Part shown: in pieces, positions 1-7,390 of the stretch
Position numbering within the stretch: the stretch's first letter is position 1
Layout: every line of letters starts with the position of its first letter
Assembly: GCA_017525805.1 (NCBI GenBank)
Contig: JAFXSH010000072.1
Location: 1 to 7,390, forward strand
Reading direction: 5' to 3'
Source of the DNA: Clostridia bacterium
GTDB taxonomy: Bacteria; Bacillota_A; Clostridia; Christensenellales; Aristaeellaceae
Length of the DNA: 7,390 nt
Position numbers and translations under genes: made by a program
Notes under the pieces: model-generated
The model's input: only the letters and a program-made list of their open reading frames with translations
What the model was told of the DNA's origin: nothing
Databases searched by the model: none

Positions 1-1678
1 GGACGATGGCCAGGATCAGCTGCGGCAGCAGCGTTTCCAGCCAAGGATAAATACCAAAGATTTGGATCACGTCGTTTTCCGGGATGCCGGGCACATTCAG
101 CGTCAGATCGAACACGTTGCCTTCGGCCAGTTCCTTGATGCCGCTGCCCAGGAAGGAAACACACATCACAGCCATCAGGATGGAAGTGGCGGTAAAGAAC
201 ACCTTGATGGGCAGCTTAATGGACAGTTTGGTGATCGCCAGGTACACGAACACCAGCAGCACACAGCCCGCGCCGAAACCTGCCCATACCATGCCGGGAT
301 TGCCCTCTGAAAGCATCGGCTGATAGAACAGCACCACTTCCGCGCCTTCCCGGAATACGGAGAGGAAAGCGGTGAAAGCGAGGGCAAAGGCGCTGCCCTG
401 CTCCACAGAGCTTTGAACCTTCCCGTCGATATAACGGCTCCAGGAGGCGGCCTCCGCTTTGGAGATCATCCAGTTGCTCACATAGAACAGAACGCACACG
501 GCGATCAGGGCGGTGATGCCTTCGATGACTTCCTGCGCCAGTCCCGCGCCCACGAATGCCTGCTTGGCCCAGGCCAATACAGCAGCGGCGGCGAAGCTGG
601 CAATCACGCCGCATACCGCGCCGATGTAGACGTTTTTCAGGTTCCTGCCGTTGCCGCTCTTGGTCAGATAGGCGATGATCGCGGCAATGACCAGAATGGC
701 TTCCAGCCCTTCGCGCACGATGATGCCGAACGCGCCAAGGAACGTGAGCAGCCGGGGATCGCTTTGCTTGGTTTCTTCCACCGCTTCCGTATTTGCCGCG
801 TTTGTTTCCTCGGCAAGGGCGGCTTTTGCTTCCGCTTCCTGATTGTCCAGCGTCTTCGCCAGCTTCAGCACCAGGTTCTTCGCCCCGTCGGTGGTGGTGC
901 GGTATTTATTCTTCTGATACTTCGCCGACGCGGAAGCGATCAGGCTTCGCAGATCGGAGAAATACCCGTCCATCTTCTGCCGGTCTTTCAAGCCAAGATC
1001 GGTATATACCCTGTGATTCAGGCCGGATTCCTCATAAACGGAATAATAGGCCGTGTTCAGGTTATCCAGGGCGGCTTCAAAATCCTTGTCAAGATAACCC
1101 ATATAGGCGGTGTCCAGCAGTTCCTTCACCAGCGTGGCGGCTTCGTACCAATTCGCGTATTTGGCGGCTGCGCCGGGATCGGCGCTGTATTCGGGATACG
1201 GGTCGGCGGACACCAATTCGCCCCGCTTGTAATACTTGCTTTCGCTCTGCACGCCGCCCTGCATGGACGCCAGTTTGTTGCCGTCCTCCCGGATCATGGC
1301 TTTCAGCTTCAAAAGAGCGCTGCGCACGGACACGATGGTTTCCCGGTCGACATTGTCTTTCTTTACCGCGGCCTTGCAGGCGGAAAACTGCATTTCCACA
1401 GCGTTTTTGCGGTTGCCGGACACATAGCTCATGGTCTGCCGCTCAAAACCGGTGGTTTCATACACCCGGAAGTAGGCATTGCTCACATCGTTATAGGCAG
1501 TCTGAGCGTCACCGTCCAGGTAGGCTTCAAAGGCCGCGTCCAGGTATTTGTCGATCTCGTCCGCAGCGTCCGCCCAGCGGGTGGAGGCGCTCTCCTCCGC
1601 CAGAGAGGAACCTGCGGGCAGCAGCAGCATCAGCAGCAAAAAACAGCAAAGCAGCCGTTTCCATCCTTGTCTTTCCAT
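1..1678 (-). CDS. FTR1/EfeU-family iron permease with N-terminal extracytoplasmic domain (3' end beyond window)
   Basis: High-affinity iron permease of the FTR1/EfeU family, expected in the cytoplasmic membrane. 559 codons are visible and the frame is open to the left edge, so the C-terminus is missing. The start ATG (1678-1676) has AAAGGAAG 9 bases upstream. Residues 1-27 form a signal peptide (Arg/Lys, Leu-rich core, ending SSLA). Residues about 30-300 are a hydrophilic, mostly helical domain made of two related halves (about 35-80 and 177-222, both with a YLD-x-D and an AY(F/Y)-x-VYE motif). Membrane helices follow at roughly 312-338, 349-372, 384-405, 430-453, 463-483 and 490-512. The two REx(x)E iron-translocation motifs of the family are present: REGLE (322-326) and REGAE (443-447). 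It is divergent from the AraC/DtxR regulator pair and carries two TTAG-N6-CTAA boxes over its promoter, consistent with metal-repressed iron uptake. Family assignment is firm; Fe2+ versus Fe3+ and the partner proteins are unknown. Confidence 0.95.
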   Translation of the reverse strand, partial: MERQGWKRLLCCFLLLMLLLPAGSSLAEESASTRWADAADEIDKYLDAAFEAYLDGDAQTAYNDVSNAYFRVYETTGFERQTMSYVSGNRKNAVEMQFSACKAAVKKDNVDRETIVSVRSALLKLKAMIREDGNKLASMQGGVQSESKYYKRGELVSADPYPEYSADPGAAAKYANWYEAATLVKELLDTAYMGYLDKDFEAALDNLNTAYYSVYEESGLNHRVYTDLGLKDRQKMDGYFSDLRSLIASASAKYQKNKYRTTTDGAKNLVLKLAKTLDNQEAEAKAALAEETNAANTEAVEETKQSDPRLLTFLGAFGIIVREGLEAILVIAAIIAYLTKSGNGRNLKNVYIGAVCGVIASFAAAAVLAWAKQAFVGAGLAQEVIEGITALIAVCVLFYVSNWMISKAEAASWSRYIDGKVQSSVEQGSAFALAFTAFLSVFREGAEVVLFYQPMLSEGNPGMVWAGFGAGCVLLVFVYLAITKLSIKLPIKVFFTATSILMAVMCVSFLGSGIKELAEGNVFDLTLNVPGIPENDVIQIFGIYPWLETLLPQLILAIV

Positions 1679-1745: not shown

Positions 1746-1759
1746 TTAGGCGCATCTAA
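1746..1759. promoter_or_regulatory. DtxR/IdeR-type operator box, downstream site of FTR1 promoter
   Basis: TTAG-GCGCAT-CTAA. Relative to the leftward FTR1 promoter it occupies about +5 to +18, starting 11 bases after the last base of the -10. The box at 2893-2906 has exactly the same offset from its own promoter. It is 27 bp from the second FTR1 box. The TTAG/CTAA arms match those of the DtxR/IdeR consensus. Confidence 0.6.
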
Positions 1760-1762
1760 CCC

Positions 1763-1798
1763 GGCATTTATATTAGCATAATCTAACTTCCTTCGCTA
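1763..1798 (-). promoter_or_regulatory. Predicted promoter of the FTR1 permease gene
   Basis: On the minus strand an extended -10 (TGC then TAATAT, 1775-1770) lies 17 bases downstream of a poor -35 (TAGCGA, 1798-1793, 3/6 matches). The expected transcript start is near 1763, giving a leader of about 85 bases. The weak -35 suggests that an activator is needed, and a 21-bp-spaced direct repeat sits immediately upstream. Two TTAG-N6-CTAA boxes overlap and follow the -10. Prediction from sequence only. Confidence 0.55.
1773..1786. promoter_or_regulatory. DtxR/IdeR-type operator box overlapping FTR1 -10
   Basis: TTAG-CATAAT-CTAA. Read on the minus strand, GTTAGATTATGCTAATA differs by one base from the corresponding stretch at the AraC promoter (GTTAGAATATGCTAATA). 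It overlaps the first three bases of the -10 and fills the spacer, so a bound repressor would block RNA polymerase. Confidence 0.7.
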
Positions 1799-1848: not shown

Positions 1849-1877
1849 TTGGCAACGGAGTTAGAATATGCTAATAT
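1849..1877 (+). promoter_or_regulatory. Predicted promoter of the AraC-dtxR unit
   Basis: TTGGCA (1849-1854), 17-base spacer, TAATAT (1872-1877) preceded by TGC, an extended -10. The start is expected near 1884, about 34 bases before the AraC-type start codon. A TTAG-N6-CTAA box lies in the spacer and overlaps the -10 in the same relative position as at the divergent FTR1 promoter. Confidence 0.6.
1861..1874. promoter_or_regulatory. DtxR/IdeR-type operator box in the AraC-dtxR promoter
   Basis: TTAG-AATATG-CTAA, covering the promoter spacer and the first three bases of the -10. It is nearly identical to the minus-strand reading of 1773-1786. If the DtxR-like product of this unit, or a paralogue elsewhere, binds here, the unit is autoregulated or iron-regulated. 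Confidence 0.7.
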
Positions 1878-1917: not shown

Positions 1918-2313
1918 ATGGACGAAGGAGGAATGAAGCCTGCCTCCTCTTTTCACGCAGCACATACGGGAAAGAGACTTGTTTCCGCTGCTGAAAACTA
2001 TCTTGCCCAGCACAGCGCTGAAAAGTTTTCCCTTCAGGAAATCGCTAATGCCCTGTATATCAACGGCTGTTATCTGCTTCGCGTTTATAAAGCCCATACG
2101 GGCCATACCCTTTTATGGTATCACAGCCATCTTCGCTGCGAAAAAGCGAAAGGACTGCTGACGGAAAGCGACCTGAGCATTTCAGAAATCGGCGAAAAAG
2201 TGGGCTTCGTTTCTTCCGCCCATTTTTCCCACGTATTCAAAAAGCTGACAGGAATGACCCCGTCAGCCTATCGTCTTTCATCCAGCAATCTTCCGCCGAA
2301 GGAGAGAGAATAA
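1918..2313 (+). CDS. AraC/XylS-family regulator consisting of the HTH domain only (MarA/SoxS-sized)
   Basis: Transcriptional regulator of 131 residues. After about 15 unremarkable N-terminal residues it is one complete AraC-type DNA-binding domain: a first helix-turn-helix at about 38-62 (FSLQEIANALYINGCYLLRV), the linker helix with LRCEKAKGLL (about 82-91), and the second helix-turn-helix with the family signature ISEIGEKVGFVSSAHFSHVFKK followed by TGMTPSAYR. No ligand-binding or sensor domain is present, so activity is probably set by abundance, as with MarA or SoxS. The start at 1918 is chosen for GAAAGAAGG 7 bases upstream; the ATG at 1933 lies too close to its GGAGG. The TAA stop overlaps the next ATG by one base, implying translational coupling to the DtxR-like gene. 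A TTAG-N6-CTAA box covers the promoter. Activation of the divergent FTR1 gene is inferred. Confidence 0.9.
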   Translation: MDEGGMKPASSFHAAHTGKRLVSAAENYLAQHSAEKFSLQEIANALYINGCYLLRVYKAHTGHTLLWYHSHLRCEKAKGLLTESDLSISEIGEKVGFVSSAHFSHVFKKLTGMTPSAYRLSSSNLPPKERE

Positions 2314-2684
2314 TGATGGTCATCAGCGCCGCTATGGAGCGTTACCTGTACGCGATCCTGCTGCTGAAAAAGAAATATTGCTGCGTCCGTTCGGTGGATG
2401 TGGCGCATTATATGAAATGCTCCAAGCCCTCGGTCAGCGTTTCCGTCAATCGGCTGATCAAGGAAGGATTGCTGGTGATGGAGCAGGACGGCAATTTGGC
2501 AGTGACAGATCAGGGCAAAGCATACGTCCAGGCCCATCAGGATCGGAGCAGATACTTCCAACAGTTGCTTGAGGCGGCCGGAATCGATCCGGATATTGCG
2601 GAAGCTGAATCTTTTTCTCTGGCAAAAGCGATTCAGCCGGACACGTTTGAGGCGCTGAAAAAGTATTTATCAAACGCTCTATGA
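2313..2684 (+). CDS. DtxR/MntR-family regulator-like protein lacking canonical metal ligands
   Basis: 123 residues: an N-terminal winged helix (8-66; recognition region about SKPSVSVSVNRL, 37-48, wing to VTDQGK) and a short helical dimerization part (70-119). MntR is about 142 residues and DtxR/IdeR about 230; the SH3-like domain is absent. The start at 2313 overlaps the preceding stop (TAATG) with AAGGAG upstream; the frame is open further upstream but lies within the AraC gene. By-eye ungapped alignment with B. subtilis MntR (from memory) puts its ligands D8, E11, H77, E99, E102 and H103 at R10, Y13, S79, F101, A104 and K105, so none is kept. DNA binding is probable, but classical Mn/Fe sensing is doubtful. 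Cys23, Cys24, His32 and Cys36 in the HTH region could offer another sensing chemistry, which is speculative. It may autoregulate, act as an antagonist, or heterodimerize with a true sensor encoded elsewhere. Confidence 0.85.
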   Translation: MMVISAAMERYLYAILLLKKKYCCVRSVDVAHYMKCSKPSVSVSVNRLIKEGLLVMEQDGNLAVTDQGKAYVQAHQDRSRYFQQLLEAAGIDPDIAEAESFSLAKAIQPDTFEALKKYLSNAL

Positions 2685-2796: not shown

Positions 2797-2836
2797 AAAC
2801 AAAAAGCGTGTGCCATGATGCCGCATAGCACACGCT
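2797..2836 (-). terminator. Rho-independent terminator, leftward
   Basis: Perfect 9-bp stem AGCGTGTGC / GCACACGCT (plus-strand arms 2805-2813 and 2828-2836), with extra ATG/CAT pairing inside the loop. On the minus strand it is followed by TTTTTGTTTC. The plus-strand side lacks a comparable T-run, so the orientation is leftward. It would end the candidate small RNA and any read-through from the methyltransferase operon. Confidence 0.7.
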
Positions 2837-2891
2837 CTTTGGGAGAAGAAAAGGAGGCGCATGATTTCTTTGGAAAAACATGCTTTTGAGT

Positions 2892-2907
2892 GTTAGATAT
2901 ATCTAAC
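2892..2907. promoter_or_regulatory. Perfect palindromic DtxR/IdeR-type operator at the small-RNA promoter
   Basis: GTTAGATATATCTAAC, a perfect 16-bp palindrome and the best copy of the TTAG-N6-CTAA box in the window. It starts 11 bases after the -10 of the leftward promoter (about +4 to +19), the same offset as the downstream FTR1 box. Confidence 0.75.
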
Positions 2908-2916
2908 CCTGCGTAT

Positions 2917-2945
2917 AGTATATAATGCCTCCAACTGATTGTCAA
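2917..2945 (-). promoter_or_regulatory. Consensus sigma-A promoter driving the candidate small RNA
   Basis: On the minus strand, TTGACA (2945-2940, 6/6) and TATACT (2922-2917, 5/6) with a 17-base spacer; the start is expected near A2910. It is the strongest promoter in the window, yet no protein start with a ribosome site follows it. Confidence 0.7.
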
Positions 2946-2988
2946 GAAGAAAAAGATTGGAAAAACAATTCGTGAACAATGATGTCTG

Positions 2989-4344: not shown

Positions 4345-4987
4345 TCAGATACTTTCGCTGCGTTTCCATCCGTCTCCGGCGTCAGTCTTGTGCCGAACGA
4401 AATCGAAGTCGCAGCAATCTCCGCCCTGGCAGAGGGTTTTTGTGCGCTTAAAGTCGGTGTAAGGCAGGCTGCCAAAGGCGATCACATCCGAATGGCAGAA
4501 CATGGCTCCCAGCTTCATCAGGTTTCGTTTGCCAAAGATGTGTTTGTATAGACATTCGTGGCACTCGAAATGGAAACGGTCTTCGGGGTCTTCGCCCAGG
4601 TGCCAGGTATACTGCCAGCCCGCCCCGGAGCCGTGCCGGAAACCGAAGGGCAGGACCTTCTTCATCAGTGATAGGCAAAAGGGCAACCGGGCCAGCCGCT
4701 GAAAAAACGCCTTCCGGGGTTTCAGTGCCCCCCCACATGGATTCGGAAATGATTTTGAATGTCTCGGGTTCGCTTTTTCCATGCTGTTGCAATACCTCAT
4801 ACAGTGCGATGGTGGTCAGAATTTGCGCCAGATGCTTGTAGTTGCCCTGATCGCAATACTGTTTTTCTTCTTCGATCAGCACCCGCATCCGGCTATACAC
4901 GTCCCGCTGAATCTCCGGGGACAGCGTAGGAAACAGCACTTTATAACGGCTGACAGCTACCAGCTTTTCGGGCGTATATTGCTTCAT
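4345..4987 (-). pseudogene. L-2-amino-thiazoline-4-carboxylate (ATC) hydrolase family gene, frameshifted at a G7 run
   Basis: Two minus-strand frames together make one protein. The first frame (from ATG 4987) gives about 86 helical residues ending at ESMWG. The second frame then continues ALKPRKAFFQRL to the TGA at 4347-4345, with the cysteine-rich end typical of the ATC hydrolase family (PF14196, from memory): FHFECHECLY, MFCHSD and RTKTLCQGGDCCDF. The shift falls in seven consecutive G (plus-strand C 4728-4734). With six G the junction reads MWGALKPRKAF and the gene becomes exactly 214 codons. In the Pseudomonas ATC pathway this enzyme opens a thiazoline ring on the way to L-cysteine; the role of the Firmicute members is uncertain. 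Its start overlaps the preceding methyltransferase stop by 4 bases (ATGA). It may be a true mutation, a slippage-switched gene, or a sequencing error. Confidence 0.8.
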
Positions 4988-7255: not shown

Positions 7256-7390
7256 TGTCCCCGTGAAACTGGACCAGCAGTAGCGAAAAAAAGGTGAACA
7301 TGGTAGAATAAAAGACGAGGGAGAGGATACCATGAATTACCAGCACTACAGTCCAGAATTCAAAGCGAAGATTGTCCTGCAGGTTCTGCA
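7256..7390 (+). mobile_element. Left end of an insertion sequence, probably IS3 family (truncated by window)
   Basis: A candidate terminal inverted repeat begins at 7256 (TGTCCCCGTGAAACTGGACC), 76 bases upstream of an ATG with a good ribosome site that opens a transposase-like frame. TG-starting ends and a short leader before OrfA fit IS3-family elements. The other end and the target duplication are outside the window, so the exact boundary is an estimate. Confidence 0.6.
7332..7390 (+). CDS. Transposase OrfA-like N-terminus (partial)
   Basis: 19 codons are visible, reading MNYQHYSPEFKAKIVLQVL. The Y-S-P-E-F-K-A-K-I-V pattern is the usual beginning of IS3/IS911-type OrfA proteins (HTH_Tnp_1 domain). 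GAGGGAGAGG lies 5 bases before the ATG. Cut by the right edge. Confidence 0.75.
   Translation, partial: MNYQHYSPEFKAKIVLQVL

Follow-up and report, generated by a model that had tools for sequence, protein, structure and literature searches.

The locus and its features

The window, by which we mean the whole stretch of 7,390 nucleotides analysed here, comes from a Clostridia bacterium and contains a short unit that appears to lack a protein. Its features are listed below; counts of loci refer to 13 homologous loci, namely the window and those in 12 genomes of one Clostridia genus (numbered with a G).

2..1678 (minus): FTR1/EfeU-type iron permease gene, running off the window; Pfam matches above cut-off, NCBIfam matches below theirs
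1746-1759 and 1773-1786 (span 1746..1786): two TTAG-N6-CTAA sites in the divergent region between the FTR1 and AraC-type genes
1861..1874: TTAGAATATGCTAA site, upstream of the AraC-type and DtxR-like genes
1918..2313 (plus): AraC-type HTH protein gene, overlapping the start of the DtxR-like gene
2313..2684 (plus): short DtxR-like protein of 123 aa, convergent neighbour of the RNA, usual metal ligands absent
2797..2910 (minus): predicted small RNA of about 110-115 nt, from fold, promoter position and homologues
2800..2841 (minus): terminator hairpin with the invariant loop TGCGGCATC, then T-rich bases to 2797
2841..2857 (minus): unpaired C/U-rich segment CCTCCTTTTCTTCTCCC, the presumed seed, containing the anti-Shine-Dalgarno sequence CCTCCTTT
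2859..2883 (minus): hairpin 1 (GCATG...CATGC), sequence kept only in the window, G001 and G011
2892..2907 (minus): operator GTTAGATATATCTAAC, a GTTAG-N6-CTAAC palindrome at the predicted RNA start
2917..2922 (minus): -10 element TATACT, spacer 17; TATANT with spacer 17 in 13/13 loci
2940..2945 (minus): -35 element TTGACA, identical in 13/13 loci
2961..2980 (minus): box ATTGTTCACGAATTGTTTTT upstream of the -35 element, in 5/13 loci (window, G001, G011, G002, G025), a possible activator or UP element

Genes for methyltransferases, a ZIP transporter and a metallo-beta-lactamase-fold protein lie on the other side of the RNA. A preliminary description, made from the letters of the DNA alone, had read the region as a full transcription unit without a protein, and most of its elements were borne out. 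The promoter TTGACA-17-TATACT (2945-2917 on the minus strand, scoring 11/12) is the best of seven promoter-like sites in the window, against 4.9 (sd 2.2) of that class expected from shuffled sequence. From a predicted start at about 2910, the RNA would be some 110-115 nt long. The fold of 2910-2787 has an energy of -46.1 kcal/mol (z -6.13), equalled by none of 200 shuffles, and in this predicted structure the C/U segment, described earlier as an unpaired stretch complementary to ribosome sites, has an unpaired probability of 0.97. The strong terminator also proposed there was located with its arms at 2841-2824 and 2817-2800 and T-rich bases behind them to 2797; a simple terminator scan of the window did not list it.

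Distribution among relatives

When the DtxR-like protein was used as query, four loci with named genomes were found, including RGIG6889 (G001), which originates from sheep rumen, and RUG10975 (G002). When 181 bases of the unit were compared by BLAST with 29 genomes of the genus, it was found in G001 (88% identity), G011 (89%) and, over 47 bases only, G002. These three sequences and the window were used to build a covariance model (R1), which detected 12 genomes with E below 1e-6 among 308 genomes of the family, all of them in the genus; three of the 12 had gone into the model and nine were new. A core model built from the 13 sequences (R2) returned the same 12 of the 29 genus genomes at E <= 2.1e-12, with the next match at 2.4e-4. 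The other 17 gave no RNA match at the sensitivity of R2, in assemblies whose completeness is not stated.

Beyond the genus, R2 was run with stricter filters on 396 genomes drawn from the larger group of the order, and nothing convincing appeared among the weak matches examined; the R1 search of the 308 family genomes was also run with stricter filters. Among 15 weak R2 loci from the genus and order searches (E 8e-5 to 0.04), none had a TTAG-N6-CTAA site in the fetched stretch and none had the full seed. Four weak R1 loci were inspected by eye (L064, L066, L067 and L073), of which L067 had a similar pyrimidine run with no operator in view. The weak matches of all these searches, part of which were inspected, are taken as chance terminators. 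The covariance search suggested in the preliminary description recovered conserved folding for the terminator, but not the expected synteny with FTR1: linkage of the RNA to FTR1 or DtxR genes is confined to the window and G001.

Conservation of an RNA rather than a peptide

All 13 loci have TTGACA, a spacer of 17 and TATANT, and in all of them the palindromic box lies 7-10 nt past the -10 element, as the earlier reading of a box just after the start implied. The operator arms are conserved apart from a single base each in G011 and G019, and the inner six bases are variable. In a core alignment of the 13 sequences, built by sequence and not fitted to structure, 97.5% of 197 cells of the terminator stem are paired, and 11 of its 16 pairs have changed on both sides, i.e. 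by compensation. The covariation score of the stem is 0.524, compared with 0.296 (sd 0.028) in shuffled alignments, none of 500 of which reaches it, and with at most 0.306 for slid versions of the structure; one of the five covariation measures, that of further pair types, does not exceed the shuffles (171/500). The loop TGCGGCATC is unchanged in every locus, and the C/U segment reads CCTCCTTTTCTTCTCC in 10 of them; G025 departs from this by one change, G011 and G005 by more. Hairpin 1 (2883-2859) keeps its sequence in only 3/13 loci. In G002, another sequence takes the place of hairpin 1, the terminator stem is altered by compensation, and the C/U segment is identical over 18 bases. Identity between the window and G001, measured on short pieces, is 98% in the RNA body, 96% in the terminator, 93% in the coding end of dtxR, 89% in the stretch past the terminator, 83% in the promoter and 64% between the -10 element and the operator.

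Two frames are open on the minus strand here, one of 82 codons (2881-2633) and one of 52 codons (2945-2787), and either might in principle encode a small peptide. However, the distance from CCTCC to the loop varies from 28 to 34 nt, and all three frame classes occur (in 7, 4 and 2 of the 13 loci). The 82-codon frame, which was the one scanned, has no Pfam match. It can be deduced from the three frame classes and the compensatory changes in the stem that the element is an RNA gene, so that its reading as peptide-coding was ruled out and we consider a peptide product of the transcript exceedingly improbable. The comparison of sequences supports a putative non-coding transcription unit with its own promoter, operator, unpaired anti-Shine-Dalgarno segment and terminator. 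A predicted promoter and terminator of its own, without a conserved coding frame, are features that it would have in common with the class of iron-sparing RNAs.

The operator and its probable regulon

GTTAG-N6-CTAAC sites number 9, 8, 9 and 2 in G001, G002, G011 and G003, compared with 2, 1, 1 and 2 for a control in which the pattern is read backwards. The 12 genomes with the RNA have 72 operator sites against 18 control sites, 10 of the 72 being the RNA's own, and the 17 genus genomes without it have 43 against 20; G008, G009 and G010 have no site at all in the genome-wide count. The sites are found at promoters of FeoA-FeoB, FTR1, ZIP and DUF3793 genes, and also at those of LolD/MacB-like and other ABC transporters; a gene for an FMN-binding protein lies behind a DUF3793 gene with the operator. 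To assign these gene families, a single member of each was searched and the others were judged by the similarity of their translations. The enrichment and the company of the sites agree with the metal-regulated operator that had been postulated. Because FeoAB and FTR1 carry it, the metal is most likely iron, as far as gene content can indicate. By the consensus sequences of the two families, TTAG-N6-CTAA is presumably a DtxR-like rather than a Fur-like site.

Two proteins of the DtxR family could be considered as its regulator. The short protein encoded in the window aligns with MntR and IdeR, and the residues R10, Y13, S79, F101, A104 and K105 were read by eye from the alignments at positions where the ligands of Bacillus MntR are D8, E11, H77, E99, E102 and H103. 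Substitutions at these positions make it unlikely that the protein senses metal in the usual way; it is possibly a metal-free or thiol-based regulator. Its KYCCVRSVDVAHY motif is kept in most close relatives. In the window its gene sits behind that of the AraC-type protein, with TTAG-N6-CTAA sites there, opposite FTR1.

A second family member, found in G001, has the ligands D, E and H and a C-x-x-E-H motif. Its orthologue is present in 25 of the 29 genus genomes (E <= 2.2e-44), the ligand residues having been read in 23 of those 25, and the best PDB matches of this ligand-bearing regulator are MntR. The orthologue is absent from the assemblies of G021, G025 and G027, all of which have the RNA, and is present in G008-G010, where the operator is not.

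Two architectures of the RNA element

At 10 loci the element stands alone, with a gap of 9 to 37 nt between the operator and CCTCC. A second form was found in G004, G005 and G018, in which the operator is followed by a leader, an open reading frame (58, 41 and 54 codons, respectively), and then CCTCC and the terminator. The stop codon lies 3 to 10 nt from CCTCC, and the RNA element is thus the 3' UTR of a small mRNA. The preliminary description had set against an RNA any homologous locus in which a conserved peptide replaced the hairpins. That case was not encountered: in these three genomes the peptide gene precedes the element and the terminator hairpin is kept.

The peptides (L155, L156 and L157) are small, operator-controlled membrane peptides of 41-58 aa, Cys-rich in G004 and G018. 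The latter two have a common membrane stretch and the sequence LR-KCLGKCA-CP, and one cysteine is left in the G005 peptide. None of the three has a Pfam match and the two larger ones have no NCBIfam match; a search of 5.8 billion proteins gave four relatives of the G018 peptide. The Cys-rich forms are somewhat like the Cys-rich proteins associated with FeoB.

A weak tree (294 positions, 28 of the 29 genus genomes, without the window, several support values low) scatters the forms with a reading frame over two or more positions, among genomes with a stand-alone RNA or with none. This scatter suggests repeated loss or gain of the frame, and the cysteine-poor peptide of G005 favours loss. A tentative reading, to which we give somewhat less than an even chance, is that this genus-specific RNA is between two states: a bifunctional mRNA in some species, specifying a membrane peptide and a regulatory RNA in its 3' UTR, and a stand-alone RNA in most, with promoter and operator unchanged and a seed that copies the anti-Shine-Dalgarno end of 16S rRNA. 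By such copying, a DtxR-type iron repressor would control a set of ribosome sites directly. If true, this would be the birth of a stand-alone small RNA from the end of an mRNA through loss of a reading frame. With both architectures in one genus, the passage from an mRNA 3' end to an independent RNA gene can be compared between species.

The same 3' UTR placement in G004, G005 and G018, and the fact that the terminator hairpin is the most conserved structure of the element, could also mean that the element is mainly a terminator or stability element of an mRNA 3' end, its stand-alone copies being leftovers without a trans function. We find this improbable, as the ten loci without the reading frame retain the unpaired C/U segment, the 9-nt loop, the promoter and the operator, which is unlikely for a leftover.

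The presumed seed and candidate targets

The C/U segment contains CCUCCUUU, complementary to Shine-Dalgarno sites. Its computed unpaired probability is 0.56-1.00 across the 10 stand-alone RNAs; for the long forms it is 0.97 in G005, 0.55 in G004 and 0.26 in G018, where the segment is predicted to be mostly paired. A segment predicted to be unpaired and complementary to ribosome sites is a further trait that the element would have in common with iron-sparing RNAs. Alternatively, the loop TGCGGCATC or the pyrimidine run might serve to titrate some other RNA or a protein that binds RNA, which could account for a loop unchanged in 13/13 loci where the loop bases of a plain terminator could vary freely. 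We give this little credence, since the seed is also conserved and mostly exposed and the binding protein is hypothetical.

No Hfq was found in the 29 genus genomes, which do not include that of the window, by a search that in a control gave a match in 5 of 14 known genomes.

The 17-nt complement of the seed shows no clear enrichment, occurring at 54 sites (10 the RNA gene itself and 44 others) compared with 36 in the control, and no gene recurred between genomes among the 20 of the 44 sites that were inspected. The short complement, GAAAAGGAGG-N4-9-ATG, occurs at 172 sites in the 12 genomes against 34 in the control, an excess to be expected because it is a common form of the Shine-Dalgarno sequence. 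Of these sites, 150 were read, and the 140 proteins of 50 aa or more were clustered. For the two families seen most often (7 and 5 genomes), inspection by eye suggests an overlap with coding sequence upstream. An ABC ATPase was found with the short complement in three genomes, as was a 4Fe-4S aldo/keto reductase; rubrerythrin and five other families were found in two each. From this recurrence the aldo/keto reductase is a candidate target, only a lead. Rubrerythrin was rejected as a target: its mean duplex energy is -20.2 across nine RNA-bearing genomes and -17.6 across 14 others (26 of 35 listed matches tried, leaving aside second copies and distant matches in G013 and G014; three starts unfound), but G012 and G026, which lack the RNA, pair about as well as the best RNA-bearing genomes.

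A proposed function

The computed results comprise the unit itself, its conservation and covariation, the operator shared with other genes, the 3' UTR form and a search that found no Hfq gene. On this basis we think it probable that the element acts in trans as a regulatory RNA within a DtxR-type iron regulon. With sufficient iron, a DtxR-family repressor loaded with metal would occupy GTTAG-N6-CTAAC at the start site and shut the promoter. Under iron scarcity the RNA would be transcribed as far as its own terminator, and the CCUCCUUUUCUUCUCCC segment, left exposed, would pair with the purine-rich ribosome-binding sites of certain mRNAs. Pairing by the seed would block their translation, presumably with no requirement for Hfq. 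In some species the RNA element would form the 3' end of an mRNA that specifies a small membrane peptide and is governed by this operator.

The unit might be metal-regulated and have a job other than iron sparing, for example in a response that extends to manganese or zinc, in the repression of one dedicated mRNA, or in changes of export or the envelope. In favour of this are the ZIP and ABC-transporter genes that carry the operator, the ligand-bearing regulator with its best PDB matches to MntR, and the functional mixture of the candidate mRNAs. However, FeoA-FeoB and FTR1 under the same operator speak for iron, and we judge such other roles unlikely, at about one third the weight of the iron-regulon RNA.

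Comparison with known RNAs

An Rfam search of the window up to E 10 gave three matches, all of them away from the unit and short of the gathering score, and at gathering score five of the 12 relatives (L149, L150, L153, L156 and L157) gave only tRNAs. Membership of a known Rfam family was thus rejected for the unit in the window and these five, and targeted literature searches returned known RNAs only, with nothing relevant to the present one. MrsI, with its IdeR box, and RsaC, under MntR, qualify the earlier remark that no described RNA was known at such a locus.

The RNAs nearest in type to the present one are FsrA, IsrR, MrsI and RsaC. RyhB of Enterobacteria is Fur-controlled and Hfq-assisted; FsrA of Bacillus subtilis is Fur-controlled, works with FbpABC and binds Shine-Dalgarno sequences by a C-rich segment; and IsrR of Staphylococcus aureus is Fur-controlled and Hfq-independent, with unpaired C-rich regions (PMC9410917). 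The present RNA resembles RyhB as a small RNA under a metal repressor at its own promoter that presumably represses translation, but it has a TTAG-N6-CTAA operator, in a genus where Hfq was not found, in place of Fur and Hfq. With FsrA it shares a C-rich anti-Shine-Dalgarno segment and a Gram-positive host, but not the Fur control and FbpABC partner, nor any apparent sequence kinship. An unpaired C-rich part and action without Hfq would link it to IsrR, which differs by its Fur boxes, three C-rich regions and length of 174 nt.

Two RNAs are associated with DtxR-family proteins. MrsI of Mycobacterium tuberculosis is described as an RNA of iron starvation that carries an IdeR box, IdeR being a functional homologue of DtxR (PMC8628891). 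The operator class and the apparent regulon found here would fit that description; MrsI differs in its six-nucleotide seed and its phylum, and has no apparent sequence kinship with the present RNA. We know of no 3' UTR form of MrsI. RsaC of S. aureus derives from the 3' UTR of a metal operon that is controlled by MntR, a repressor of the DtxR family (PMC9438474, PMC9294342). Its likeness lies in being the 3' UTR of an operator-controlled mRNA, a layout found by sequence in G004, G005 and G018 but not in the window or nine other loci; RsaC differs in its length of 584-1116 nt, its release from mntABC by RNase III and its response to manganese. In a 2022 review, a table gives RyhB and its analogues for Fur, RsaC for MntR and 'none reported' for the iron sensor DtxR (PMC9294342). 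Through its IdeR box, MrsI is in part an exception to that entry.

We file the element, on its sequence features, as a putative new RNA family of a known kind, with the DtxR-type operator and the double architecture as variant features. It would represent an iron RNA of DtxR type in Clostridia that seem to have no Hfq and of which at least one comes from sheep rumen.

Additional observations

Paired operators 65-77 bp apart, mostly 68-69, occur before DUF3793-like genes in six genomes (twice in G011) and before an FMN-binding-like gene in G002, one operator being at the start site and one in the leader. The pairs are at L043 4969/5037, L044 3449/3518, L047 9226/9295, L048 942/1011, L164 3006/3075, L174 2649/2726, L175 2715/2780 and L049 420/489; they perhaps serve cooperative or looping repression. 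At FeoA-FeoB of G001 one operator fills the spacer between the -35 and -10 elements and a second lies just downstream (L042 3081-3131), and a like site in G011 has the same layout (L046 4388-4435). In G002, a second operator-bearing promoter lies within about 180 bp past the RNA gene (L049 420-700) and precedes a gene like the FMN-binding one of G001.

Within the window, 4345-4987 holds two overlapping frames, one matching ATC_hydrolase (PF14196), which look like one frameshifted gene (assembly error or decay). At 7333-7390 a plus-strand frame begins with MNYQHYSPEFKAKIVLQVL, which looks like the start of an IS3-type transposase.
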